Shown: positions 1 to 35,333 of the stretch, one piece after another
Position numbering within the stretch: the first letter of the stretch is position 1
Layout: every line of letters starts with the position of its first letter
Origin: a virus
IMG/VR virus record: IMGVR_UViG_3300036985_000835
Location: 1-37,937 of that record
Direction: 5' to 3' (one strand)
Length of the DNA: 37,937 nt
Notes under the pieces: generated by a model
What the model saw: the letters and a program-made list of their open reading frames with translations, nothing else
The model's database searches: none
What the model was told of the DNA's origin: nothing
Translations under genes and position numbers: made by a program

Positions 1-1203
1 AGATACCCATTGTGTTTGAATCAGATTGGCCAGTGGCTGGTAGTTAAAATCAAACTTAGAAGTAGGTCCTACTTTTAATAAGTAGTTGTTTACTTCAAGA
101 ATTTGATCTGATGTTTCATACACCGGTGTTTGTATAGGTAGCTGCTCAATTGGGTATGCTGTAATATCTTCTTTAATCTGATCTAAATAGATCTTTGTAG
201 TACTAGTAGAATAGATGCCTATCTGTTTTGCAACAGCAGCTTGATTTACTGTAGCTACTATGATTAATATGAACTCATCAAAGTGTACTTGATCTGCTTG
301 TATATCAATCTCTAGTGCACCTGTAGTTTCATTGTTATACCATATTGGCTGCACATTACTTGGTGAGAAGAAGTCTGTTACTTTAGTTCCTTGAATAGCA
401 TAAGCTATTAAAGCCATGTAAGAACCATTTCTTAAATTACCTCCAGCTTTTCCCGGGGATACTTGTATACAGGGTGTCTGCATAAGACGTGATAGTCTAA
501 GCTCATCACAGTTTAATGCAGAAGTATCTACACATGTAATACAAGCATTAATCCCTGGGCAACCTATCGGCCATACATCAGGCTCTGTTTGTTGGCAACC
601 ATTGTCAGTGCTACATAGTTGTTTCCATGGAACACCTGGCCATTGAATTGTACTTGGTCCATTAGAGTATTGGTTATTACCTACCCATTGATAGTCATTA
701 GCTGGCCAAGTTTGTGGGTCACCAATATTCATATAGCGGTCTGGATTTTTTCCATCCGCCCAATACACTTGCCAAGAGCAATCATTAACCTTTTTTGCTG
801 CTCCTGTGATTAAATCCCATTTGCTAAATGCTAAACAAATGTCCTGTACAATTATTCTATACTCACAACTTGATTCTTCAAGTAAACCAATCTCACATCC
901 CGTTATAACATTAGAGGCTTCACTCTGGTAAACTACAGTAAATAGAATCCACTTATCACTAAATAAATGTATAGTGCCTATGATGTATTTAACTCCTGTT
1001 AGTGTAGCACCTGCTTCTGTACAATAAACATTTCCGGGCTCATTAGATAAGCTGCCGGCATCACCTTCTCTTGTATTGTTAGTAGCGTTACGCGCATGCG
1101 TCCACATACCTTCTGCTACAAATGATGGATCAAGGTCTTTATTGAGACCTTTAACAAAAGTGTTTAATTGATTCTGATCAATACCTTGTGATTCTTTAGC
1201 CAT
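1..1203 (-). CDS. Stabilization-type tail protein of crAss-like phages, C-terminus cut by left edge
   Basis: An open frame of 401 codons starts at 1203 and runs off the left edge without a stop. The N-terminus (MAKESQGIDQNQLNTFVKGL, then NKDLDP and an EGMWTHARNA stretch) follows the pattern G-hN-x-D-x-(D/S)P-x(4)-(E/D)G-x-(Y/W)-x-x-A-x-N. I associate that pattern with the proteins annotated as stabilization protein in crAss-like phages, which build the distal tail. The rest is beta-rich with several Cys-Trp segments (residues about 120-220), as expected for a large virion protein. Its start lies one base beyond the stop of the ring protein at 1205, so the two are probably translated together. 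The role in the tail tip or muzzle is inferred from family and position. Confidence 0.6.
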   Translation of the reverse strand, partial: MAKESQGIDQNQLNTFVKGLNKDLDPSFVAEGMWTHARNATNNTREGDAGSLSNEPGNVYCTEAGATLTGVKYIIGTIHLFSDKWILFTVVYQSEASNVITGCEIGLLEESSCEYRIIVQDICLAFSKWDLITGAAKKVNDCSWQVYWADGKNPDRYMNIGDPQTWPANDYQWVGNNQYSNGPSTIQWPGVPWKQLCSTDNGCQQTEPDVWPIGCPGINACITCVDTSALNCDELRLSRLMQTPCIQVSPGKAGGNLRNGSYMALIAYAIQGTKVTDFFSPSNVQPIWYNNETTGALEIDIQADQVHFDEFILIIVATVNQAAVAKQIGIYSTSTTKIYLDQIKEDITAYPIEQLPIQTPVYETSDQILEVNNYLLKVGPTSKFDFNYQPLANLIQTQWVS

Positions 1204-10295: not shown

Positions 10296-10745
10296 TTATT
10301 TCAAGAAAATAAGTTTGTACTTAGCGGAGTTGATGCTATCCTTTAGAGTATCAAGTGAATTTACAAGTTCTGAGTAAGGCATCTTACCTTGTAAGCTAGT
10401 TACCATCTGATACATGTCTCTTAGATAACTGATACCATCTTCTACGGATGAAAGTGATCTTGGTGATACATCTGTGTAACTAAGTAGCTTTTCAGAAGCT
10501 CCTTGATATCCTTCAGCCAAAGCATCAGCATGTCCAGGTAACGCATCATATAAATCATTCAATGCTGTGTGTGCAGCAAATGATCCTGCACCAGTTACTT
10601 TAAGGTGTAGTTTGTGAAAGCTTGTTGCAGCATTCATTAACTCTGATACACATGCTGCAGTCATAGAATCAATTGATCCTCCTGCTGGTGCTGAATAACT
10701 TGCTGCGGGGGCAGAGTCTCTTTTTAACATTCTAGGTTTGTCCAT
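10296..10745 (-). CDS. Ferritin/Dps-like helical phage protein (DUF5856-like)
   Basis: The 149-aa product has a short Pro/Ala/Ser leader and then a helical bundle. The stretch around residues 39-82 (SFHKLHLKVTGAGSF, AAHTALNDLYDALPGHADAL, AEGYQG) follows the Dps/ferritin pattern of paired His, H...D and (D/E)-x-(L/I)-AE positions. Several phages encode such proteins near structural genes; their role, perhaps iron or DNA binding or protection, is not settled. The start lies three bases beyond the stop of the 232-aa structural gene. The fold call is by motif only. Confidence 0.55.
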   Translation of the reverse strand: MDKPRMLKRDSAPAASYSAPAGGSIDSMTAACVSELMNAATSFHKLHLKVTGAGSFAAHTALNDLYDALPGHADALAEGYQGASEKLLSYTDVSPRSLSSVEDGISYLRDMYQMVTSLQGKMPYSELVNSLDTLKDSINSAKYKLIFLK

Positions 10746-10748
10746 TTT

Positions 10749-11447
10749 TTAGTTATTACGTTCAGCAGTCTCAGAACCTCTGGAGAATTGGCTTCCTGAT
10801 TCTATATCTCCAGCAAGTATACTAGCCGCCTCATCAATTAATACTTCAATTATATCATCTTTAAATTCACATTGTATATTTGTAACGGACTGTAATCCCG
10901 TGTACGGATCTACACAACCTTGAACTTGAATCTTTCTTGGTTGTCTGTAATAAGTCAGTGCTATAGATGATACATTGAATTCATCATTAGTATAAACATA
11001 AATCTTATTATTTTTAATAGTAGCAAAAGTTTCTGCCCATTCAAAGCTAGGTTTCTTTCCATCATCTCTGAGCAACTGACTTAAGTTAGCTTCTTCAGCT
11101 AAGTAAACTACCATACGTCTATCAGGACAACATGAGTTTGAAGCATAAGTATCTACTCTTTTCCATTGAAAATAATCTTCTGGAATACCAACTGAATAAG
11201 AGATTTGCTCATTATTGGTTGGCAGATCTGTTGTAATGAGTAACGCTTGGAGGTCATCAATTCTTCTTGTTGATTCTTCATCACCTTCCTTAACTATATT
11301 CAAACCATGAAGCTGTCTTCTAGACCACTCTACCTGAGCTTTATTAAATGCCTCAACTATCTGCCAACATTCAATGTTGTCATAGTCCTGAGAATCTAAT
11401 TTATTCAGGCGTTGTTTAATCTTTATGGTTAATACACTATTTAGCAT
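10749..11447 (-). CDS. Conserved structural protein, probable head-closure type, 232 aa
   Basis: The product opens MLNSVLTIKIKQRLNKLDSQ, then DYDNIECWQIVEAFNKAQVE and WSRRQLHGLN, followed by strands (IPEDYFQWKRVDTYA, VVYLAEEANLSQLL), an ALTYYRQPRKIQVQGC segment and an acidic C-terminal helix (EFKDDIIEVLIDEAASILAG). This layout matches a protein common in structural modules of Bacteroidota phages. The helix-strand-helix plan and the position between head and tail genes suggest an adaptor or head-completion protein. It lies six bases from the stop of the first basic array protein's neighbour at 11453. Confidence 0.5.
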   Translation of the reverse strand: MLNSVLTIKIKQRLNKLDSQDYDNIECWQIVEAFNKAQVEWSRRQLHGLNIVKEGDEESTRRIDDLQALLITTDLPTNNEQISYSVGIPEDYFQWKRVDTYASNSCCPDRRMVVYLAEEANLSQLLRDDGKKPSFEWAETFATIKNNKIYVYTNDEFNVSSIALTYYRQPRKIQVQGCVDPYTGLQSVTNIQCEFKDDIIEVLIDEAASILAGDIESGSQFSRGSETAERNN

Positions 11448-11452
11448 CTTAA

Positions 11453-12334
11453 TTATTTATAAGGTGGATTCCATCCTTCTTTTTTTGGTTTACTTTTAGA
11501 TGCTGCCCAAAGTCCAAGACCACCAGCAATACCTACACTAAGACCAAGTCTTTTTTTCCACTTTGCAGCGTCAGCTTTGATCTCTTCTCTAGTCATTGGT
11601 TTTTCTTTTGACTTCTTTTTAGAATCAGTTTTCTTTTTAGAAGAAGTTTTTTTCTTATTAGTAGAAGTAGATTGGGCAGCCCGTTCAGGTTTATTAGCAG
11701 TAGATGATTTCTTTTTACCTGTTGAAGATCTTTTAGTTCTAGCAACAGTTTCTTTTACAGTCTTATCTTGAGCGGCACGCAAGTCTGCAACAGTTACAAG
11801 TCTAGGCTTTGGAGCTTCTACTTTTGGCTTGTTTGTCTTAGTATAAGTTCTTTTAGGAGCCGTTTCTAATTTAGGCTTAGCATCAAAGGTAGCTGTATTA
11901 GCAGCATCTTTCTTTTTTTGAGCATCCCTTTTCTTTGTGAATTCTTTTTCAGCTTTAGCATACTCAGCTGCTTCTTTTTTAGCTTTTTCAGCTTTTAGCT
12001 GAGCTGTTGTTTTTTTAGGAGCTATAGTCCTTGGAACAGGAGCAGGTTTTGCTACTTTAGCTGCAGGAGCTTTTTTTACTGCCGCAGCTGCTTTTTTATT
12101 GGCTGCCGTAATAATGTCTTGTGCCATAGTTAAAGCAGGAACCTTTCTAGTAGACGTAGCAGCTTTCCCGGTTTTTGCAGCAGCAGAAATTCTAGAAGCT
12201 GCTCCAGTAGCTTTAGTTGTAGTTTTAACAGTTCTTGCAGCTCTTATTGGTTTTGCAGCAGTAACAGCTTTAACACCAGACGCAACTGTCTTTACTATCT
12301 TTCCTTTGTTGGCTTTAGGTAATGAACTTTTCAT
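11453..12334 (-). CDS. Histone-H1-like Lys/Ala-rich protein, 293 aa (basic array member 12)
   Basis: The product is dominated by Lys, Ala, Thr and Pro with KKAPAAKVAKP-type repeats along residues about 60-260, and has almost no predicted folded core. L-x-K-A-x-x-G is present at residues 5-11 (LPKANKG), followed by KIVKTV. A single hydrophobic glycine-rich segment (LGLSVGIAGGLGLWAAS) lies near 264-280, before a basic tail. Composition suggests DNA or membrane contact rather than catalysis. It is the last gene of the basic array before the structural protein at 10749. Low complexity makes homology calls unsafe. Confidence 0.55.
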   Translation of the reverse strand: MKSSLPKANKGKIVKTVASGVKAVTAAKPIRAARTVKTTTKATGAASRISAAAKTGKAATSTRKVPALTMAQDIITAANKKAAAAVKKAPAAKVAKPAPVPRTIAPKKTTAQLKAEKAKKEAAEYAKAEKEFTKKRDAQKKKDAANTATFDAKPKLETAPKRTYTKTNKPKVEAPKPRLVTVADLRAAQDKTVKETVARTKRSSTGKKKSSTANKPERAAQSTSTNKKKTSSKKKTDSKKKSKEKPMTREEIKADAAKWKKRLGLSVGIAGGLGLWAASKSKPKKEGWNPPYK

Positions 12335-12341
12335 AACTCAA

Positions 12342-12953
12342 TTATTTTTTTCTTTTATTTTTCTTAGCACCTGCAATTCTATCAGCAGCTGTAGCTTTGT
12401 TATATGGTGGAGCTAGTGCAGCAAACCTTGCAGCTTTAGTAGCACCACCAACTGCCATCTTGCGTTCCATAACACATCTACCATTAGCATCTCTAACCAT
12501 ACCACCTTTGCATGATGTCATTACAGCACGGTTTTGAGCAAATGATTGTGTTACTCCACCTGTAGCATATATCTTTCTTACACCAGATGTATTAGGAGGA
12601 AGAGGTCTAGTAATATTAGGTTTAACCTGCATACCAGAATCAGCTTTTTTAAGTTTAGGTTTTGCAGTTCCACCATTTTTAAGCATGCGTCCTTCTTGAG
12701 TTCTTGGGTTATTACCATACATAGGCATACCAACAATACCAGTTGTACCACCAGCTTTAAATCTTTTAGATTTCATAAGTTCTTCAGCTTTTTGTTTTTC
12801 ATATTTTCTGTTCCACCTTTTATCCTGGCGGTCCATTTTTCTTTCAGCTCTCATACCCTGTCTAACTGTTTTTTTAGAAACAGGATCCTCAGCAGTACCG
12901 CCAGCTTTCATTCTTTTTGCTCCACCACATTGAGCACATGCCATCTTTGCCAT
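12342..12953 (-). CDS. Basic protein with repeated K-x-GG motifs, 203 aa (array member 11)
   Basis: A CAQCGG cluster opens the protein. K-x-GG-type motifs recur: MKAGGT (16-20), FKAGGT (65-70), LKNGGT (91-96), ATGGVT, CKGGMV and AVGGATK. L-x-K-A-x-x-G occurs internally at 101-107 (LKKADSG). The C-terminus contains FAALAPPYNKATAADRIAGA, a stretch I have seen in small proteins of Bacteroidota phages. The product is strongly basic and probably unstructured except for the ends. It begins two bases downstream of the previous stop. Function unknown. Confidence 0.55.
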   Translation of the reverse strand: MAKMACAQCGGAKRMKAGGTAEDPVSKKTVRQGMRAERKMDRQDKRWNRKYEKQKAEELMKSKRFKAGGTTGIVGMPMYGNNPRTQEGRMLKNGGTAKPKLKKADSGMQVKPNITRPLPPNTSGVRKIYATGGVTQSFAQNRAVMTSCKGGMVRDANGRCVMERKMAVGGATKAARFAALAPPYNKATAADRIAGAKKNKRKK

Positions 12954-12955
12954 GA

Positions 12956-13495
12956 TTATTTCTTTTTGGTAGTTAACCGTTTAGAACTAGTTGCTTTTGA
13001 AGATGTGAAAGGTTTTCTTGCTCTCTTCTTCATTCTATTGATAGTATCTAAAGCACCTTTTCTATCAGTCTTAGACTTTGTAGTTTTATACATATTACCT
13101 CCCGGTAACTTTTGTTTACTTACAACAGTAAAGTTTTTCTTACCTGCAGCAAATCCTGTAGTATCAATACTCTTTTCAAAGTGTTTTGTTGTTTTTAATT
13201 TATGAGGAGCGTTTATGTCATAGTTACTACTTGTGACTTCATATCTAGGTCTACCATAAGCAGTATACTCTTTTGTATTCGTGTGAACATTAGATTTATT
13301 AAATTTATCTTTTTTTCTTGACACAGTGTCATACTTACCTTTTGCATCAGTATGTTTATGCAAAAGCTCGTAGCTAACACCAGGCTTGAGTACTTTAAAA
13401 CGATCTGTAATACTATTTGGTGATAGACTCACTTTTTTAGAAGAAGTTTTCTTTTTAGTAGGAGTGCTTTTTTTCTGAGTTTTTGTTGTTGCCAT
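12956..13495 (-). CDS. Basic protein, paralogue of the 13498 gene, 179 aa (array member 10)
   Basis: A Lys/Thr/Ser-rich N-terminus (TKKKTSSKK) leads into a more ordered middle with Tyr, Asp and Asn. Residues around 110-155 carry SIDTTGFAAGKKNFTVVSKQ and then LDTINRMKK. The protein at 13498 has the equivalent SIDTTGYSKGKKEFTI and LNTMKK, so the two are tandem duplicates that have diverged. No enzyme motif is visible. The start follows the previous stop by two bases. Confidence 0.55.
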   Translation of the reverse strand: MATTKTQKKSTPTKKKTSSKKVSLSPNSITDRFKVLKPGVSYELLHKHTDAKGKYDTVSRKKDKFNKSNVHTNTKEYTAYGRPRYEVTSSNYDINAPHKLKTTKHFEKSIDTTGFAAGKKNFTVVSKQKLPGGNMYKTTKSKTDRKGALDTINRMKKRARKPFTSSKATSSKRLTTKKK

Positions 13496-13497
13496 GA

Positions 13498-14040
13498 TTA
13501 TTTCTTTTTAACAGTTTTCTTTTTAACAGTTTTCTTTTTTTGAGCAGCTTCCTTTTGTAGCATACCTGTACCCTTCTTCATGGTATTTAAAGTTGATTTA
13601 ACTTTGCTTCTTGGTATAGTCCAAGAATTGTAAGTTTTCTTCCCCTCCATTCCATCTGAAGGATCTGTTTTTTTCTGCTTTATGGTAAATTCTTTTTTAC
13701 CTTTTGAATAACCAGTGGTATCAATAGAAGTATACTTACTTGGTAAGGAAACAACTCTATCTCCACCAACATTTCTAGTATGTACTAACCCGTGACTTGT
13801 ACTTCTTACAACTCCTTTTTTATTTGCAAAGTATGTTCTATTATGCTTATCGGTCTCACCTTCTGATCTTTTGACATCCCAATACTTATGACTATAAGTA
13901 GGTTTCTTAGCAGCAGGTTTTTTAGCAGCAGGCTTCTTACCTCCTTCAAAAACCTTATTATAAATCTTTTTTCCGCGTGCAGTTTTTCTTTCAGAAATGA
14001 CTTGCTCATTACTTTTTCTTACTGCTGTAAAATCTCCCAT
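13498..14040 (-). CDS. Basic protein, paralogue of the 12956 gene, 180 aa (array member 9)
   Basis: An upstream in-frame ATG at 14064 would overlap the preceding gene; the ATG at 14040 (MGDFTAVRKSNEQ) leaves an 11-base gap and is preferred. Residues about 36-48 are a PAAKKPAAKKP repeat and the end is KKKTVKKKTVKKK, encoded by a short tandem DNA repeat. The central SIDTTGYSKGKKEFTI region is shared with the next gene. It has the same basic character as the rest of the array. Function unknown. Confidence 0.55.
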   Translation of the reverse strand: MGDFTAVRKSNEQVISERKTARGKKIYNKVFEGGKKPAAKKPAAKKPTYSHKYWDVKRSEGETDKHNRTYFANKKGVVRSTSHGLVHTRNVGGDRVVSLPSKYTSIDTTGYSKGKKEFTIKQKKTDPSDGMEGKKTYNSWTIPRSKVKSTLNTMKKGTGMLQKEAAQKKKTVKKKTVKKK

Positions 14041-14051
14041 TTTATATAAAT

Positions 14052-14594
14052 TTAACAGTTCCACTTTCTTAAAGACTTGTTAATCCTTGAGTTAGGATCA
14101 TTAGCTGTCTTTGCACTTGTTAGTTTTTTCTTCATCCCTGACATTCTGCTACAGAAAGACTTGCGTCTACCTGCTGCTTCACTTCCAGGTTTAATCTTTG
14201 AAGGTTTAGTAGTTACAGCTGTCTTAAGTTTACTACCTGGATTAGCTGCTCTGTAGCTTGCTACTCCTTTTGCATTCAGGCCTCCCTCTGGATTCTTACC
14301 TTCTTTGCGTGTCCAAGCTGCAGTGCTTCCACCAGACTTCATCTTTGACAAGCCTTTACCTTTATAGTCATAATCAGGATTCTCTCTGTGCCATCTTTTA
14401 GTATCTGCTACACCCTGTTTAATTGTCTTTGCTCTTCCTTTGGCAGTAAGATCTATTGTATCCCATTGCCCTTTATCTTTGGTTGGGTGGTTGACCATAA
14501 TGTTGCCAACCTTTCCCTCACCTCTTTTTGTAGTCTTCTTGTATACTACATGTTTTTCTCCACCTGCAGTAACTTTAACTTTAGGAGATTTCAT
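14052..14594 (-). CDS. Two-part basic protein with DUF6321-like C-terminus, 180 aa (array member 8)
   Basis: Residues 1-80 hold a short domain (GNIMVNHPTKDKGQWDTIDL, then GVADTKRWHRENP). A MKSGGST motif bridges to the C-terminal part, AWTRKEGKNPEGGLNAKGVA followed by RRKSFCSRMSGMK and an RKWNC end. That second part fits the pattern of a small domain found in many phages (I recall it as DUF6321), for which no function is known to me. The start overlaps the stop of the upstream gene by one base. Among the array members this is the most recognisable. Confidence 0.6.
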   Translation of the reverse strand: MKSPKVKVTAGGEKHVVYKKTTKRGEGKVGNIMVNHPTKDKGQWDTIDLTAKGRAKTIKQGVADTKRWHRENPDYDYKGKGLSKMKSGGSTAAWTRKEGKNPEGGLNAKGVASYRAANPGSKLKTAVTTKPSKIKPGSEAAGRRKSFCSRMSGMKKKLTSAKTANDPNSRINKSLRKWNC

Positions 14595-14878
14595 TATTGC
14601 TTCTCTTTAAGCTTTTTGATACCAAAGTAAGCTCCTGTTCCCGCAGCTCCTGCTCCAAGAACACCACCCACTACACTACCAGCTTTCTCTTTAAAGTTAT
14701 CCCAAGCTCTAGCTCTTTTATTCTTTCTTTGAGCACGTGCAAAATTACATCCTCCGCGTTGCGCTTCAGGTAGTGAACTCATATTGTTTATAATAGATCC
14801 TTTGCTAGCTTTCTTTAATTGAGCTTCTTTAACATCATTAAAGTGCTTAAGTGGATTTGTTTTCTTTTGTGCTTTCAT
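14594..14878 (-). CDS. Small basic protein with one hydrophobic segment, 94 aa (array member 7)
   Basis: Residues 8-27 read NPLKHFNDVKEAQLKKASKG, combining an NPLK-x-FND motif shared with the 163-aa protein at 15625 and the L-x-K-A-x-x-G motif (21-27). A basic middle (QRKNKRARAW) precedes a glycine-zipper-like hydrophobic segment (VVGGVLGAGAAGTGAYFGI, about 68-86) and a short Lys-rich tail. The architecture would suit a membrane-inserting peptide or a packaged internal protein. Function unknown. Confidence 0.5.
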   Translation of the reverse strand: MKAQKKTNPLKHFNDVKEAQLKKASKGSIINNMSSLPEAQRGGCNFARAQRKNKRARAWDNFKEKAGSVVGGVLGAGAAGTGAYFGIKKLKEKQ

Positions 14879-14880
14879 AA

Positions 14881-15195
14881 TTATTTCTTTTTAGCAACTG
14901 TAGGTTTTTTTATTGGGGTAGGCTTTTGAGCTTTTTTAAGAGCTTCTCTACGTTTTCCTTCAGCCATGTAACGTTTCTTCTGAGCATCATATTGACTCAT
15001 TGCAGCAGCTGTTGTACCAAGACCAGCTAAGCCAAATACTTTTAAGAAAGCGCTATCAAACCCATTAGGATTTTTAGCAGCCTTCTTTGCTTTCTGTACA
15101 GACTTAACAGCTTTGTAAGTTTTCTTAGTAGCCTTCGCTCCAGAAACTAAACTTTTAACAATCTTACCTAAACTAGCTTTTTCTAAGTTTTTCAT
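14881..15195 (-). CDS. Small basic protein with one hydrophobic segment, 104 aa (array member 6)
   Basis: The N-terminus MKNLEKASLGKIVKSL carries L-x-K-A-x-x-G at residues 4-10 followed by KIVKSL, closely matching the neighbour at 15198. A Lys/Ala-rich helix (residues 18-42) precedes a mildly hydrophobic stretch (FLKVFGLAGLGTTAAAM, about 50-66) and a KKPTPIKKP-type tail of the same style as the next protein. The shared ends suggest descent by duplication. Function unknown. Confidence 0.5.
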   Translation of the reverse strand: MKNLEKASLGKIVKSLVSGAKATKKTYKAVKSVQKAKKAAKNPNGFDSAFLKVFGLAGLGTTAAAMSQYDAQKKRYMAEGKRREALKKAQKPTPIKKPTVAKKK

Positions 15196-15197
15196 GA

Positions 15198-15623
15198 CTA
15201 CTTCTTTTTGATAGGTGCAGGCTTTTTAACAGCTGTAGGTTTTTTAGCAGTGGTTTTTTTAGAGGTAGGTTTTTTCTTTTTACCAAGTGTTGCTTCACTA
15301 AGCATTCCTGCACCAAGTACTCCTAGACCAATACCTATTGCTTTAAGTTTAGTTTTACCAACAGCGCTTTTACTATCAGGCCCAAATTTTCCTTTTTTGA
15401 ATCTTGCCGCAGCATCAGCTTTTTGTACTTCACTGGATTTCTTAACACTTTCAGAAACGTTTTTAGCAAATTCATTATCAAAAACTCTATTGCTATATCC
15501 CTGGGGATTAGCTTTACTCAAAGTCTTTGCTGTTTTATATCCTTGCTTAGCTCCTTTTACAGCACCACGAAGTGATTTAACAATAGTACCAAGACCTGCC
15601 TTTTTTAATTTTTGTGTTTTCAT
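15198..15623 (-). CDS. Small basic protein with one hydrophobic segment, 141 aa (array member 5)
   Basis: MKTQKLKKAGLGTIVKSL carries L-x-K-A-x-x-G at residues 6-12 followed by TIVKSL. A Lys/Ala helix (19-38) and a polar middle lead to a glycine-rich hydrophobic segment (AIGIGLGVLGAGMLSEA, about 94-110) and a long KKPTxxKK tail. It parallels the 104-aa neighbour module for module, though longer. The product has no enzyme motif. Function unknown. Confidence 0.5.
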   Translation of the reverse strand: MKTQKLKKAGLGTIVKSLRGAVKGAKQGYKTAKTLSKANPQGYSNRVFDNEFAKNVSESVKKSSEVQKADAAARFKKGKFGPDSKSAVGKTKLKAIGIGLGVLGAGMLSEATLGKKKKPTSKKTTAKKPTAVKKPAPIKKK

Positions 15624-15624
15624 C

Positions 15625-16116
15625 TTATCTTTTTTTAGCCATTGCTTTAAATGTCTTAGCCAATGCTTTACGCTTTGGTGTACAAGTAGGTTTTGTCATT
15701 GGAGTACAAAAACCTTTATGTTTAGGGTTAACTGCTTTTTGAATCCAGTTTTTATCTTTAGTAGACCCACCATTTTTAAAACCTCTGCGTAGTTTATTTT
15801 CATCCTTTTGTCTTTGCATAGCTTCTCTTTCCTGATCAGATACCATTTGACCATTTACAAATGGATTAAGTCCTCTGATAAGATCAGCTTCTTTAGGAGC
15901 ATTAGGTACAGCAACTGGAGCTGTAGACGGATACCACTTATCTAACTTTTTAACATCCTTCTCATTAAGTGGTCCTTCATAAACACCACGACCATATTGA
16001 GCTTTCTTCAAAGTCTTCTTATAAGCACTCATGGCACCACCAGCTTTTTTATAAGCCATGGCTTGGTTGTCATTAAAAGTCTTAAGTGGATTGCTAATAG
16101 TTTTTTTAGTTGCCAT
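15625..16116 (-). CDS. Basic protein with NPLK-FND and GG motifs, 163 aa (array member 4)
   Basis: Residues 9-16 read NPLKTFND as in the 94-aa protein at 14594. YKKAGGAMSAYKK (22-34) leads into L-x-K-A-x-x-G at 36-42 (LKKAQYG). A second GG motif (FKNGGSTK) lies near 113. The C-terminus has two Cys in a basic context (GFCTPMTKPTCTPKRK). Except for the acid-containing middle the protein is strongly basic. It starts two bases after the previous stop. Function unknown. Confidence 0.5.
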   Translation of the reverse strand: MATKKTISNPLKTFNDNQAMAYKKAGGAMSAYKKTLKKAQYGRGVYEGPLNEKDVKKLDKWYPSTAPVAVPNAPKEADLIRGLNPFVNGQMVSDQEREAMQRQKDENKLRRGFKNGGSTKDKNWIQKAVNPKHKGFCTPMTKPTCTPKRKALAKTFKAMAKKR

Positions 16117-16118
16117 GG

Positions 16119-16271
16119 TTATTTCTTTTTAGCAGTAGCTCTAATCTTCTTCTCTTGCTTAATCATTGCTTGAGTAGGTTTCTTTCCAGAACCTTTAGCA
16201 GCACGGATGTTATCCCAGAGACCTCTCTGGGAATAACTACCGTCTTTTCTTTTAAGCATTTGCTTAGCCAT
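16119..16271 (-). CDS. Very small basic protein, 50 aa (array member 3)
   Basis: A complete 50-codon frame fills a gap between two array members. It starts at 16271 (MAKQMLKRKDGSYSQRGLWD), continues with NIRAAKGSGKKPTQAMIKQE and ends in ATAKKK with a TAA stop. The W-(D/x)-N-I-R-A-x-x-GSG-x-KPT stretch looks like a short motif of small phage proteins and argues that it is coding. Its stop is two bases from the next ATG, and it uses the same Lys-tail junction as its neighbours. Function unknown. Confidence 0.65.
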   Translation of the reverse strand: MAKQMLKRKDGSYSQRGLWDNIRAAKGSGKKPTQAMIKQEKKIRATAKKK

Positions 16272-16459
16272 TATCTCATTCTTGTAGATGGCTCAGCATT
16301 TTTTGGTGCTGTGCTAGTTCCTCCTACTCTACCTTTAGCAACTGTCTGTACAGTAGCTGCTTGGTTAAGACCAACATATGTTCCTTTGCTTCCCGGAACT
16401 GTTTGCACTTGAATGCTTGCATTTGGGTTCTTAAGTTTCCCTGTTGTATAGTTTTCCAT
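16271..16459 (-). CDS. Small basic protein duplicated from the end of the 16461 gene, 62 aa (array member 2)
   Basis: The product MENYTTGKLKNPNASIQVQT... ends with PGSKGTYVGL, then GRVGGTSTAPKNAEP. The C-terminus of the neighbouring 16461 protein has NPNAKVSKQ, PGSKG and GRVGGTSKAPRTAKP in the same order. A 22-base identical stretch links the two at the DNA level, so one arose by tandem duplication. Gly/Thr/Pro-rich and probably extended. Function unknown. Confidence 0.5.
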   Translation of the reverse strand: MENYTTGKLKNPNASIQVQTVPGSKGTYVGLNQAATVQTVAKGRVGGTSTAPKNAEPSTRMR

Positions 16460-16518
16460 CTTATTTATTTTTAGGTTTTGCTGTTCTTGGAGCTTTGCTA
16501 GTTCCTCCTACTCTACCT
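16313..16518 (-). repeat. Pair of direct repeats from a tandem gene duplication
   Basis: An identical 22-base sequence lies at 16313-16334 and 16497-16518, encoding the GRVGGTS segment of both proteins in the same frame. Similarity continues less perfectly on either side. The two copies are 184 bases apart, about one small-gene length. Confidence 0.8.
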
Positions 16519-17348
16519 GTTGCACGTTTAGCTGCAGTAGCTTTAGGATTAACTTTAGGTCTAACTCCTTTAGATCCAGGTTTAGTTTGTTTAGAAACTT
16601 TAGCATTGGGATTCACCATTCCTCCTGTTTTGTACTTAGCTTTTGTAGCACCGCCTCTTTTTTGAATTGGAACTGCTGGTCTAGGTGTCATGGTTATTCT
16701 ATCATTTGCTACAGCTTTGCGTTTTTCTATTTCTTTCATAACAGCAGGTTTGGTAGCATCCATCTTTTTATAGTAAGCATCTATATCACTACCATACAAA
16801 TCCTTGTTATCATTATAAAACTCATTTGTAGCTTGGTGATGAAAACTATAGTTAGGATCTCTGTACTTATTTGCAACTTTGTTACCAAACACTGCTCTAT
16901 CGTCATTAGGAGCAACAAACCTTGCAGCTGGTATTGGATTTTTACTACCGTAATCTGCAACTTGTCTTGCTGCAAATTCTGGCAAAGGACCTTCCATTCT
17001 ACCAGTACCGCCTCCTGGTTGATACTTCTTAATACCTCCTGTTCTATACTTGGCAACACCACCTTTTTTCTTTACTGACTTTGGTACATTGGTAGCTTTT
17101 TCTCTAGCAGATTTAATAGTAGATTGCAACTTTAGTTTTCTTTCCTCTGAAGCTTTCTTTTCTTTTATGCGCTTAACTGCATTTTTGATCATGTTAGCTC
17201 CTGCTGCTGCCATAGCAGTTACAGGGATACCAATACCTAATGCAGGTCCAAGTTTCTTTTTACCTGACGTATCATTATACCCACCAGCTTGCGCTTTCTT
17301 CAACTTTGGCTTAGCCGTAGTCTTAGTGGTTTTTTTCATTGTTGCCAT
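16461..17348 (-). CDS. Basic protein with GG motifs and one hydrophobic segment, 295 aa (array member 1)
   Basis: The frame could open at 17381 inside the preceding gene, but the ATG at 17348 (MATMKKTTKTTAKPK) lies past that gene's stop and matches the style of the array. L-x-K-A-x-x-G is at residues 16-22 (LKKAQAG). A hydrophobic Gly/Ala segment (ALGIGIPVTAMAAAGAN) follows near 36-52, then a Lys/Glu helix. GG motifs recur (YRTGGIKKYQPGGG, KRGGATKAKYKTGG). A less basic middle (residues about 130-220) contains the repeated Asn/Tyr/Asp stretch EFYNDNKDLYGSD. The C-terminus is the source or copy of the 62-aa protein. Confidence 0.55.
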   Translation of the reverse strand: MATMKKTTKTTAKPKLKKAQAGGYNDTSGKKKLGPALGIGIPVTAMAAAGANMIKNAVKRIKEKKASEERKLKLQSTIKSAREKATNVPKSVKKKGGVAKYRTGGIKKYQPGGGTGRMEGPLPEFAARQVADYGSKNPIPAARFVAPNDDRAVFGNKVANKYRDPNYSFHHQATNEFYNDNKDLYGSDIDAYYKKMDATKPAVMKEIEKRKAVANDRITMTPRPAVPIQKRGGATKAKYKTGGMVNPNAKVSKQTKPGSKGVRPKVNPKATAAKRATGRVGGTSKAPRTAKPKNK

Positions 17349-17358
17349 TATACATAAA

Positions 17359-18378
17359 TTAAGAATTCCAAAGTTTTTCAATTTTCATATTGAGATCCTT
17401 AAGAACATCTTCATTTAAAGGGTTTCTCAAGTACTCAATAACATCAGATGTATTTCTACCTAACATTGCTCCTGACTGAGTATGATAGATATAACCATCC
17501 GGCTTATTAATAATATACTTAAAAAATATGGAATCTTTGACAATTGCTTTGATTTTTAATGTTTCCATATCTAAAGCGGCAGCATCTAGGAAACCTTTAG
17601 CAGATCTTTCCTTATTACCTTCTGAGCCTTCACCGTTGATATGTCTATCCATATTGTCATAGATAACATCATTTGGAGTATACTTTTTATATTGTACACT
17701 AGCTGTATCTACTGCCTTAGCAATGTAGAATAGCTTAGTGCTGTTCTTATCAAATAATTTCTGAAGTTCAGCAAGTGCTTTGTTACGCAACTTCTTGTAT
17801 TCAGTTCTAGCTCCTGCAGTTTCTTGAGCTTTATCTAAATAAAACTTTGGTGGAATAGCTCTTGATCTTGCTTCATCATAACTTCTTGATACAAGAGAAA
17901 ATCCTCCTGCTTCAATTGCATGAAGTTTAATTCTATCAAATGGATCTTTAAGATCTAAGAATACTGGATCATTACCACAAGACAAACTGATCTTATTCCA
18001 AAACTCCGCATTGTCTGGTCTTAGTAATTTTACTTTAGTCCAGAACTGTGGATCATCAATCTCAAGTACGTTAGCTGCCAAGTCTCTTTCTAAGTCAGCT
18101 ACCATTGTTCTAATCTCTTTAATCTTTGCTTCTCTTTCTTCAGGGCTTTTAATCAGTTTAATTTCTGGTGCAAATTCATTTAGTCCTGTGACATACTGAA
18201 TAACACCATTTCTTTCTAGACAAGCTAATTGTTCAGTATGTGTTACACCATCAAATAGTGATAGACCGTACTGTTCTAATCCCATGTTAGATACTGAATT
18301 GTCAAAATATGGTTTAACAGAGATATTACTTTGTTTAGTGTCTCTGGTTTCTACCATTGTAAAAGTTGCATTTTCCAT
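17359..18378 (-). CDS. Conserved-looking structural-module protein of unknown function, 339 aa
   Basis: The product begins MENATFTMVETRDTKQSNIS and is mixed alpha/beta with balanced charge. Residues about 78-105 form a helix with an E-x-x-x-K heptad feel, 165-210 contain a Lys/Ala-rich helix (TEYKKLRNKALAELQKLFDK) and the C-terminus has SGAMLGRNTSDVIEYLRNPL. I do not recognise a family. It follows the capsid gene across a terminator and has an unusual A/C-rich leader. Its place between capsid protein and basic array suggests a virion component. Confidence 0.5.
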   Translation of the reverse strand: MENATFTMVETRDTKQSNISVKPYFDNSVSNMGLEQYGLSLFDGVTHTEQLACLERNGVIQYVTGLNEFAPEIKLIKSPEEREAKIKEIRTMVADLERDLAANVLEIDDPQFWTKVKLLRPDNAEFWNKISLSCGNDPVFLDLKDPFDRIKLHAIEAGGFSLVSRSYDEARSRAIPPKFYLDKAQETAGARTEYKKLRNKALAELQKLFDKNSTKLFYIAKAVDTASVQYKKYTPNDVIYDNMDRHINGEGSEGNKERSAKGFLDAAALDMETLKIKAIVKDSIFFKYIINKPDGYIYHTQSGAMLGRNTSDVIEYLRNPLNEDVLKDLNMKIEKLWNS

Positions 18379-18469: not shown

Positions 18470-20086
18470 TTAGAATGATCCACCAGTAATTGGATTTCTC
18501 ATAACAATCTTAAGGACTTTAGTTGGATCCTTAACCCAGATAGCTGGCATTGTTTGAGACATCATTACACGGTATCCATTGAATTGGCCAGAAGACTGGA
18601 ACCCTTGAGTACGGCCCATGTAATCCATTGTACCATTTTGATACCACCACTTCAATTGGTTATCCCAAGACAACTTCAATAGGTAGATGTTATCATTTGT
18701 ATTATCAGTGATGTCAAAGATAATGAATGAATAAGAAGACAATGGGAAACCATCAATGATAGGGTTCTCAATATCATTCGTGTGAATGTTGTCAAATGCT
18801 GGGTTCAACACAAACTTAACGTTAGCCAAGAATGGAATAACATAAGAAGTGTAAGCAAATCCAAAATTCAAATCCATTCCTTTACCAGTGATTGCACCGA
18901 TATCAGCAGCCTGAATCAAAAGACCAGATGAGATAGCCTCACGCTTGATAGCTTCATTTACCAAACGCATACCACCCATACCAGTTTGAACAACTAGTGA
19001 ACGCTTAGGATCTGGACCTTGGAACTCAACCTTACCATTGAAGAAGTTGTAGATTTCTCCACGGAACAAATCAAGGTTAAAGTTATTCTTGTTGTAGATT
19101 CTCTTGAATGAGTTATCCAACTGTTTCCAAAGACCTACAGACAATCTGATATCATCTGGACCATCCTGGCGTACTCTACCTCCTTGTCCCCACATCAAGT
19201 AAGTCTCAATGTCAGATGCAACCTTAGAAAGGTGAGCTGCTTCCATGTTTGTCAAGAATGTTCTTGAAAGGTCTCCGTTATCAAAAGCTTTCTTTACAGA
19301 ATCTTTACCCATAACTTTAACCATATCCTCCAAAGATGTAACTGAAGGATCAAGGTTTTTGTTGAATGTTCTCCAGATCTCAGTTACAGGAACTGTACCA
19401 TCTGCATTCATTCCACCTTTAATCATCAAGTCAGCACGGCTAGAGATAGAATAGTGAACGTGAGCTTCAGCTCCCCCTACGTAGTTGTAGAATTCACGGA
19501 ATCCAGCGTTAGTAATGATGTCAGAGAATCTTTCACCATACTCACCTCTTGCAGAACCTTTACGGAAGATCTTAGTACCACTAGCAAGATACTTGTTGTC
19601 AAGATACTTGTAGTTGTCATTGTTTACCAATTGTACGGTATAGATAAATCCATCTCCAATAGGAAGGATATCATCTTGTGTTACGTACATCTCAACACCG
19701 TTGTACTTGTCATAGGTAAGGATATCACCATGACCAAACTCACGTCTGTTAAGTTTAATTTTGAATGTGTTACCATCTACACCTTTGAAGTCATTGAGTG
19801 GCTCAATATCTTCAACAACGTAAGGTAGGTCAATAGAGACCGGAGTCTGCCATTTGTACTCTCCACGAGCATTGTCTACCATGATTACATTCTTCCCTCC
19901 AAATGATGACATTTGATAAAGGGGCATTTCTACTTTTTGAGCCATTGCCCAAAGGTCTACTGGACCCAGATCCATAGGTTCTGCGTCTTTCAACATGTTT
20001 GTAAGGTGGTATGAATCTACGTGGGACGATGCATTGTATGCCGTGTCACGCAGGAATATACCATTGTTTAAAACTGGAGTTGCCAT
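18470..20086 (-). CDS. Major capsid protein (crAss-like, HK97-fold candidate)
   Basis: The 538-aa product starts MATPVLNNGIFLRDTAYNAS and is close to the roughly 500-aa size of crAss-like capsid proteins. It has no signal peptide or membrane segment. A long helical part (residues about 225-330, with DLSRTFLTNMEAAHLSKVAS) could be the spine helix, and beta-rich parts surround it; the C-terminus ends in KVLKIVMRNPITGGSF. Gene order (terminase, portal, acidic scaffold-like protein, this gene), its own terminator and an A-rich leader all support the call. The HK97 fold itself is not visible directly. Confidence 0.75.
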   Translation of the reverse strand: MATPVLNNGIFLRDTAYNASSHVDSYHLTNMLKDAEPMDLGPVDLWAMAQKVEMPLYQMSSFGGKNVIMVDNARGEYKWQTPVSIDLPYVVEDIEPLNDFKGVDGNTFKIKLNRREFGHGDILTYDKYNGVEMYVTQDDILPIGDGFIYTVQLVNNDNYKYLDNKYLASGTKIFRKGSARGEYGERFSDIITNAGFREFYNYVGGAEAHVHYSISSRADLMIKGGMNADGTVPVTEIWRTFNKNLDPSVTSLEDMVKVMGKDSVKKAFDNGDLSRTFLTNMEAAHLSKVASDIETYLMWGQGGRVRQDGPDDIRLSVGLWKQLDNSFKRIYNKNNFNLDLFRGEIYNFFNGKVEFQGPDPKRSLVVQTGMGGMRLVNEAIKREAISSGLLIQAADIGAITGKGMDLNFGFAYTSYVIPFLANVKFVLNPAFDNIHTNDIENPIIDGFPLSSYSFIIFDITDNTNDNIYLLKLSWDNQLKWWYQNGTMDYMGRTQGFQSSGQFNGYRVMMSQTMPAIWVKDPTKVLKIVMRNPITGGSF

Positions 20087-34139: not shown

Positions 34140-35333
34140 TTAGGCTAATAGAATCTTTTGTACTACTCCATTAATTGTAACCTCCCAATACTTAGTAGAT
34201 GTATTTACTTGTGCAGCTACAGTACCAAACTCAGAACCAACTTCTCCAATAACCATTTGATTATTTGCTGTAGGAGAGCCCTGACCAAGCACACAAGTAC
34301 TAGTAAAGTTACCTGTGTAACCTGCAGCAAGACCGATAAAAATATTGTAATTTCCTGTGGTAGTTGCATTACCTGTTTGCGGACCAATAAATGTATTACC
34401 AAGTCCTGTTGATACATTAATACCAGCCTCTTGACCTAATGCTGTATTATAATCACCTGTTGTAAATGATAATGCAGATGCTCCAACTGCTACAGATCCA
34501 GCAGGTCCATTAACTAAGGCATTTGCTCCAATTGCTACAAGAGCTGTAGCATTACTTGCTGAGGAGGCCATAGCATTTTTACCAATGGCTACATTAGCAT
34601 TTCCATTAGTAACTTGTGAAGCTGCGGAATTTCCAATAGCTACATTATCATAACCAGTTGATAGATTTCTTAAAGCTTGGTAACCTACTGCTGTATTATA
34701 CAATCCAGCACCAGTAGTTGCTGATAAAGCATAATCTCCAAGAGCTGTATTGTTTACATTGTTTAACTTACCAGTGCTGATAAGTGATCCGCGAGAAGTT
34801 AAGTATCTAAATCTAGCATCTTGACTAGGTACAGTGCCTGATTGGAAGAATACTCTTTCAGTTATACCAGATGTAACTGTTGTATAACCTACTACAATAG
34901 CATTAGGTCCTGCAATACCTTGTGGTCCTGCAGTACCCGGTGATCCTTGTGATGCAAGTAATGCCCAGTTAGTAGGATCTAAGTCAGGTGTAGTAGCAGA
35001 TGGTCCTACAGGGTCTATACAAAACCAAGAAGCTCCACCATAACCTACAGCATCATCAATAACATATGTTCCCAATGCTGACCATGATCCTTGCCAATTC
35101 AATCCTGCTGGACCTACTGGACCTGGTACACCTTGTGGACCTATAGGACCTTGTACTCCTGTTGGACCTGCTGGCATTTGAGCTGCAAAGTCTTCTACTG
35201 TAATCGCAACTGCAATATAGTCATCAGCTCTGCGGGGCGTCCTTAATGCTAAAGGTAGTAATGTATTTTTTGGATCTACTGAAACAACAGTTCTCTTACC
35301 TTTGATCCAGCTTATAAAATTTAATATATCCAT
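34140..35333 (-). CDS. Collagen-like tail fibre with CBM-like and YadA-head-like repeats
   Basis: The 397-aa product has residues 55-78 as G-x-y collagen repeats (GPTGVQGPIGPQGVPGPVGP). Residues about 79-125 follow with a chitin-binding-type CBM5/12-like module (WQGSWSALGTYVIDDAVGYG). A second collagen stretch lies at 130-144. Residues about 190-360 are repeats of the form NTALG-x-x-A-L ... G-x-x-N-(T/V)-A-(V/I)-G, as in trimeric autotransporter heads. The N-terminus MDILNFISWIKGK resembles that of the 268-aa protein at 35466 and likely anchors it to the tail. It is probably a trimeric receptor-binding fibre. Confidence 0.7.
   Translation of the reverse strand: MDILNFISWIKGKRTVVSVDPKNTLLPLALRTPRRADDYIAVAITVEDFAAQMPAGPTGVQGPIGPQGVPGPVGPAGLNWQGSWSALGTYVIDDAVGYGGASWFCIDPVGPSATTPDLDPTNWALLASQGSPGTAGPQGIAGPNAIVVGYTTVTSGITERVFFQSGTVPSQDARFRYLTSRGSLISTGKLNNVNNTALGDYALSATTGAGLYNTAVGYQALRNLSTGYDNVAIGNSAASQVTNGNANVAIGKNAMASSASNATALVAIGANALVNGPAGSVAVGASALSFTTGDYNTALGQEAGINVSTGLGNTFIGPQTGNATTTGNYNIFIGLAAGYTGNFTSTCVLGQGSPTANNQMVIGEVGSEFGTVAAQVNTSTKYWEVTINGVVQKILLA

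Follow-up and report, generated by a model that had tools for sequence, protein, structure and literature searches.

A hypervariable cassette of small basic proteins in a crassvirus genome and a candidate cargo-loading motif

How do crassviruses select the proteins that they pack and inject? The question is raised by virus record IMGVR_UViG_3300036985_000835, a 37,937-base fragment of a crassvirus genome (referred to in its entirety as the window), in which positions 11453-17348 are filled by 12 consecutive minus-strand open reading frames (ORFs) for very basic proteins. These genes make up a cassette that keeps its place and charge in related phages and is hypervariable in content; its proteins have a short motif in common, and a leader common to a subset of them precedes different bodies. 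At a rough probability of 0.55, the cassette encodes co-packaged internal proteins and the motif is a cargo-loading tag, like the capsid-targeting sequences of the phage T4 internal proteins. Tagged internal proteins are already known; a variable cassette sharing its motif with crassvirus cargo-block proteins was not found in the literature searched. The structure of crAss001 shows cargo zones, and the available parts of its description include no sorting signal (PMC10172136).

A basic cassette at a fixed site

Coding sequence accounts for 99% of the cassette, with spacings of 0 to 11 bp between ORFs, and all 12 proteins are basic (isoelectric point [pI] 10.2-10.9, net charge +6 to +58, 50-295 amino acids [aa]), in agreement with the original prediction, made from the DNA alone, of 12 consecutive very basic genes. 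Ratios of nonsynonymous to synonymous substitution (dN/dS) are 0.18 to 0.64 for the cassette genes common to close relatives, so the ORFs are real coding genes under constraint. Searches of family libraries with the 12 window proteins identified DUF6321 as the only known domain. Start codons are uncertain for gene 9 (GTG 14064 or ATG 14040) and gene 1 (TTG 17381 or ATG 17348). The genes are as follows, with the motif L-x-K-A-x-x-G located by nucleotide (nt).

16461..17348, minus strand: cassette gene 1, 295 aa, pI 10.5; LKKAQAG at residues 16-22 (nt 17283-17303), with KYRTGG, KKYQPGG and KYKTGG in addition; hydrophobic segment beginning at residue 33
16271..16459, minus strand: cassette gene 2, 62 aa; module also present in relatives as the fused terminal part of larger proteins
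16119..16271, minus strand: cassette gene 3, 50 aa (MAKQMLKRKDGSYSQRGLWDNIRAAKGSGKK...); present in 9 of 41 loci
15625..16116, minus strand: cassette gene 4, 163 aa; leader NPLKTF...LKKAQYG with the motif at residues 36-42 (nt 15991-16011), fused via ...GGST to a WIQKAVNPKHKGFCTPMTKPTC module; the last 50 residues stand alone as a 50-aa gene in relative L002; a search of annotated phages found no counterpart of the 163-aa protein
15198..15623, minus strand: cassette gene 5, 141 aa; LKKAGLGTIVKSL, motif at nt 15588-15608; Gly-rich hydrophobic segment
14881..15195, minus strand: cassette gene 6, 104 aa; LEKASLGKIVKSL, motif at nt 15166-15186; hydrophobic segment
14594..14878, minus strand: cassette gene 7, 94 aa; leader NPLKHF...LKKASKG, motif at nt 14798-14818; Gly-rich hydrophobic segment, judged by eye
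14052..14594, minus strand: cassette gene 8, 180 aa; N-terminal half joined at KMKSGGST to a C-terminal half that belongs to DUF6321 (PF19846; Pfam E 9.8e-20, 71.4 bits against a cut-off of 28.5)
13498..14040, minus strand: cassette gene 9, 180 aa from ATG 14040 (188 aa from GTG 14064); dN/dS of 0.18 against L002
12956..13495, minus strand: cassette gene 10, 179 aa, Lys/Thr-rich
12342..12953, minus strand: cassette gene 11, 203 aa; CxxCGG near the start, LKKADSG at residues 101-107 (nt 12633-12653), KMAVGG and RMKAGG in addition; a relative present in 33 of 41 cassettes
11453..12334, minus strand: cassette gene 12, 293 aa; LPKANKGKIVKTV, motif at nt 12302-12322; hydrophobic segment near the C-terminus

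The phage group of the window is represented by hundreds of environmental contigs in public data. A scan with the major capsid protein (MCP) returned 80 loci with 91-98% capsid identity, 45 of which include both genes flanking the cassette; 40 of these are nonredundant and, with the window, give 41 loci for comparison. The same site is filled in all 45 relatives, by 5 to 10 genes over 1.5 to 5 kb, nearly all encoding proteins of pI above 9.5. The content of the site is fluid: clustering of 299 proteins from the 41 loci gave 98 groups, of which 68 have a single member, and the median overlap of gene content between two loci is 0.20. DUF6321 is near-constant (35/41 cassettes), and DUF5872 (21/41) is the only other known domain among the cassettes of the relatives. 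Outside this group, proteins 40-86% identical to the DUF6321 protein at 14052-14594 occur in over 500 annotated phages (530 phage records), mainly cyanophages and pelagiphages; this small basic domain therefore moves between unrelated aquatic phages. A literature search on DUF6321 and on lysine-rich crassvirus proteins found nothing useful.

The genes for the TerL, portal, MCP, ring, and muzzle proteins are arranged in the window as they are in crassviruses, as expected of a Crassvirales-type phage; Pfam matches are to crAss_MUZ and CrAss_Ring_2, PHROGs matches are to TerL, portal, and MCP, and the TerL matches Crassvirales records. The genes around the cassette that are referred to below are as follows.

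18470..20086, minus strand: MCP (phrog_11589, E 1.4e-31), the query used to find relatives
17359..18378, minus strand: conserved 339-aa gene upstream of the cassette on the MCP side; by gene order, the positional equivalent of crAss001 gp33; 66-97% identity in relatives, with no match in Pfam or PHROGs
10749..11447, minus strand: conserved ring-protein-like virion gene downstream of the cassette (phrog_29507)
10296..10745, minus strand: Dps/ferritin-like gene adjoining the ring gene (phrog_858, DUF5856)
1..1203, minus strand: start of the muzzle protein (crAss_MUZ, Pfam E 1.2e-13), cut by the window end

The site is empty in FPSV-S29, phi4:1, csAssE-Sib, and Lbo-JY46, four phages that are more distant. 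There the genes that occupy the flanking positions directly adjoin each other, with spacings of 6, 0, and 3 bases in three cases and an overlap of 1 base in the other, so that the cassette appears to have been added to a virion gene block that is otherwise compact. Equivalence of the empty sites rests on homology of the ring gene in FPSV-S29 (E 2e-9) and on the annotation of its csAssE-Sib counterpart as a ring protein; for the ring gene of the other two phages, phi4:1 and Lbo-JY46, and for the counterparts of the 339-aa gene in every one of the four, it is positional.

The motif within and beyond the cassette

The motif L-x-K-A-x-x-G occurs in 7 of the 12 window proteins, as LPKANKG (starting at residue 5), LKKADSG (101), LKKASKG (21), LEKASLG (4), LKKAGLG (6), LKKAQYG (36), and LKKAQAG (16). 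The original prediction reported this count, the location of six of the seven copies within the N-terminal 42 residues, and a following (K/T/S)-I-(V/I) in four, and all three statements are correct. Among 20,000 within-protein shuffles, 87% contained no motif protein and the maximum was 3; when every four-position pattern containing L and G was allowed, the maximum was 4. The motif as first written is real but is one variant of a wider one, since alignments around GG and around KA..G converge on [LVIM]-[PK]-K-[AMYF]-[QK]-x-G-(G)-[ST]-[VT]. Across the cassettes, L.KA..G was counted 46 times against 2.8 expected from shuffles, and K[AYFM]..GG was counted 196 times against 13.

Eighteen cassette proteins begin with a leader of approximately 27 to 43 residues, K-x-NP[LI]xxF...KSLPKAQxG, with the motif at its end. 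Among the 17 that have a comparable body, the leaders are similar in 43 of 136 pairs and the bodies in 8 of 136, which is the T4-like arrangement of a common N-terminal leader and a divergent body, although only two of the window genes have this type of leader. Motif copies are not restricted to the N-terminus: 45 of 89 are located past residue 45, and between 2 and 8 copies are present in several of the proteins. Many modules are both free-standing and fused to others, with GG at the join in 37 of 60 mutually nonindependent cases (16 expected) and with S, T, or M frequent directly after GG. Of the 32 cassette proteins in which a hydrophobic segment rich in Gly/Ala occurs, 30 have the motif, an association that is suggestive only, since longer proteins are likelier to hold both.

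A score matrix for the motif was built from the cassettes and run over seven related records of 80 to 121 kb. The hit density per 1,000 aa was 9.8 for the cassette, 1.08 for the block from the muzzle gene to the gene for the C2-like protein (the cargo block), and 0.06 elsewhere. The cargo block contained 27 hits in 24,920 aa compared with 12 in 192,967 aa elsewhere, a 17-fold enrichment (P = 3.6e-17) in counts that are not fully independent, neighboring genomes being related; at a stricter score (13.9) the block was still enriched approximately ninefold (P = 6e-4). The cargo-block enrichment is not circular. In three relatives (G001-G003), gene order places the motif-bearing block directly beyond the muzzle gene.

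The block encodes large proteins of three families, A to C, located by position between the muzzle and RNA polymerase genes and before the C2-like protein. Every family A member seen has the motif at residues 8-17, in most members without the second G, and P11, A13, and G16 are invariant in nine sequences, including the Lbo-JY46 protein MKIRIIGLPKAQIG, a divergent member recognized by position and motif. A tblastn search of annotated phages with the family A N-terminal domain, using a composed consensus as the query, gave no match. In phi4:1, the three stretches scanned (approximately 37,800 aa, 84% of the genome) contained two hits, both in gp040, which is annotated as a virion protein by tandem mass spectrometry (MS/MS); the gp040 N-terminal domain aligns with family C over 49 residues (hhalign E 2.7e-4, 42% probability).

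A family C protein (L115:1876-4389) contains VanY carboxypeptidase and SLT transglycosylase domains, as would be expected for cell wall opening at entry. In the gut phage csAssE-Sib, a 40-aa basic protein among tail genes (L140:14720-14842) has two copies of the motif (KKARQGGEV and KMRQGGSV). Four of 16 records (G003, G006, G002, and G008) encode SET-type lysine methyltransferase domains, which lie within a cargo-block protein in G003 and G006 and, in G003 (L095:10142-12193), beside a motif-bearing Lys-rich gene and DUF6321; that Lys-rich cassette proteins are substrates of these enzymes is speculation.

Packaging and its alternatives

From the location of the cassette in the virion gene block, the enrichment of the motif in the cargo block, its presence in phi4:1 gp040, and the common leader, we infer that the small Lys-rich proteins would be made alongside the capsid and ring proteins, packed in the head with the DNA, and then expelled into the cell. 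The tag would bind an inner virion component, such as the MCP, portal, or scaffold, and so recruit any protein that carries it, including the large proteins encoded between the muzzle and RNA polymerase genes. The shortness and modularity of the tag would allow genes to be freely gained, fused, and swapped and their products still be cargo. Putative roles of the passengers are DNA condensation and, for proteins with a Gly-rich hydrophobic segment, action on membranes. Recruitment would explain why the motif is common to an exchangeable basic set and the cargo block, why it occurs in N-terminal, internal, and repeated positions, and why the bodies differ. The co-packaging of internal proteins with a targeting motif, put forward in the original prediction, thus has indirect support. 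By analogy, crAss001 lends further support, the corresponding block there encoding stored and ejected cargo (PMC10172136). A wider proposal is more tentative: in one crassvirus branch, a tag of the form [LVIM]-[PK]-K-[AMYF]-Q-x-G-(G)-S-V might, without proteolysis, dock the large ejected proteins together with basic passengers whose set is open-ended and rapidly exchanged, proteins becoming cargo by gaining the tag.

Several points weigh against packaging. No cassette protein has been directly seen in a virion, and no binding partner has been identified. The sole proteomic anchor, gp040, belongs to a distant phage that has no cassette and is linked to family C by a short stretch of 49 residues. 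The strict motif is missing from 5 of the 12 window proteins, and the enrichment in the cassette is partly circular because the matrix was trained on cassettes. Scans of FPSV-S29 and the gut phage cr1_1 found no motif and that of crAss001 found it only at chance level, so that genome was not used as evidence for the motif and the tag is not general in Crassvirales. Structure predictions for the DUF6321 protein and a leader protein were of low confidence (pLDDT of 65 and 58); the cassette proteins are probably mostly disordered.

The motif could instead be a cleavage site, as the original prediction also proposed, with precursors cut after G or GG at head maturation to release leaders and basic peptides. 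Precedents are T4 processing and, by analogy, the GG-x sites of adenoviruses. The position of motifs at module junctions, the excess of GG at joins, the S, T, or M that often follows, and the motif-bearing leader ahead of different bodies would all suit cleavage. The expected enzyme was not found: S78 and ClpP searches of relatives were negative with working controls; S77 and C48 searches were also negative but weak, the S77 control scoring only below the cut-off and the C48 control being silent. Neither S77 nor S78 had a match in 12 records, although these may be incomplete and a protease of another family is possible, and no prohead or GG-specific protease family appeared when most proteins of one relative were scanned against Pfam. 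The second G that is missing from most family A members and the copies that are repeated or lie far from the N-terminus also count against a prohead protease site, which the results support less well than a loading tag. Cleavage at GG joins is kept as a rival, though an unlikely one, because the controls for S77 and C48 gave no information and the records are possibly incomplete.

The basic proteins might also act unpackaged in the infected cell by binding DNA or RNA, the motif being a protein- or nucleic acid-binding element or a flexible joint. Their strongly basic, Lys-rich character, the occurrence of DUF6321, which is not known to be linked to the head, in numerous unrelated phages, and GG at joins, as suits a linker, fit this alternative. 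Its probability is low: the cassette is situated among the virion genes, the cargo block is enriched in the motif, a virion protein contains it, and the residues before GG (K, M/Y/F/A, Q/K) are specific, unlike those of a simple linker. That the motifs arose by chance in Lys/Ala-rich, low-complexity proteins is very improbable and was rejected, K and A being very frequent but composition-preserving shuffles giving far fewer copies, P, A, and G being invariant in family A, and dN/dS being below 1.

A motif common to variable passengers and a conserved cargo block is a direct and testable candidate for a sorting signal. If the packaging reading is true, the motif would mark uncharacterized small proteins as injected ones across this phage group and might be attached to chosen proteins in order to load them into a phage head.

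Genomic setting and known systems

The host of the window phage may belong to the Bacteroidota. A Shine-Dalgarno-like sequence was found in 0 of the 31 genes checked, which is compatible with such a host and no proof of it; the assignment is unproven because, of the MCP matches in annotated phages, the one with the best coverage is from Leptolyngbya phage Lbo-JY46 (29% identity over 99%). A search of the window for Bacteroidota-type promoters gave scattered matches, none immediately upstream of the cassette, and a search for a host genome with a related TerL found none. In relatives with an identity of 76-80% in the terminase and 67-74% in the ring protein, the MCP retains approximately 92%, an unusually high conservation relative to those two proteins. 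A 397-aa protein with collagen-like GPxG repeats (34140-35333) is probably a fiber protein. The Dps/ferritin-like gene beside the cassette is retained in nearly all relatives.

Among aquatic virus proteins of the DUF6321 and DUF5872 families, to which one window gene is related through DUF6321, a tagged multigene cassette was not found described in the papers searched. Encapsulin cargo-loading peptides are short motifs in flexible tails that dock cargo, including ferritin-like proteins, inside an HK97-fold shell. The Dps/ferritin-like gene that adjoins the cassette recalls this arrangement; the encapsulin motif differs.

The T4 internal proteins share an N-terminal targeting stretch ahead of divergent mature parts, a proposed route for varied proteins into the head (PMC9026906, PMC7411985). 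The cassette resembles IPI-IPIII and Alt in general features: the proteins are small, basic, and tagged, with several genes per phage. The T4 signals are single stretches of 10 to 19 residues at the extreme N-terminus that are removed by gp21 (PMC9026906, PMC7411985), whereas the cassette motif is often internal and repeated, with about half of its copies away from the N-terminus, and no gp21-type protease was found in the relatives searched.

Among crassviruses, crAss001 stores cargo proteins in its head and tail (PMC10172136). Unlike the crassvirus cargo proteins C1 and C2 (crAss001 gp45 and gp46), the cassette proteins are small and basic and are encoded at another locus, between the MCP-proximal gene and the ring genes rather than between muzzle and polymerase; family-library searches gave no match to gp45 or gp46, with which no direct comparison was made. 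Families A to C, in contrast, share the place of gp45 and carry the motif of the cassette.

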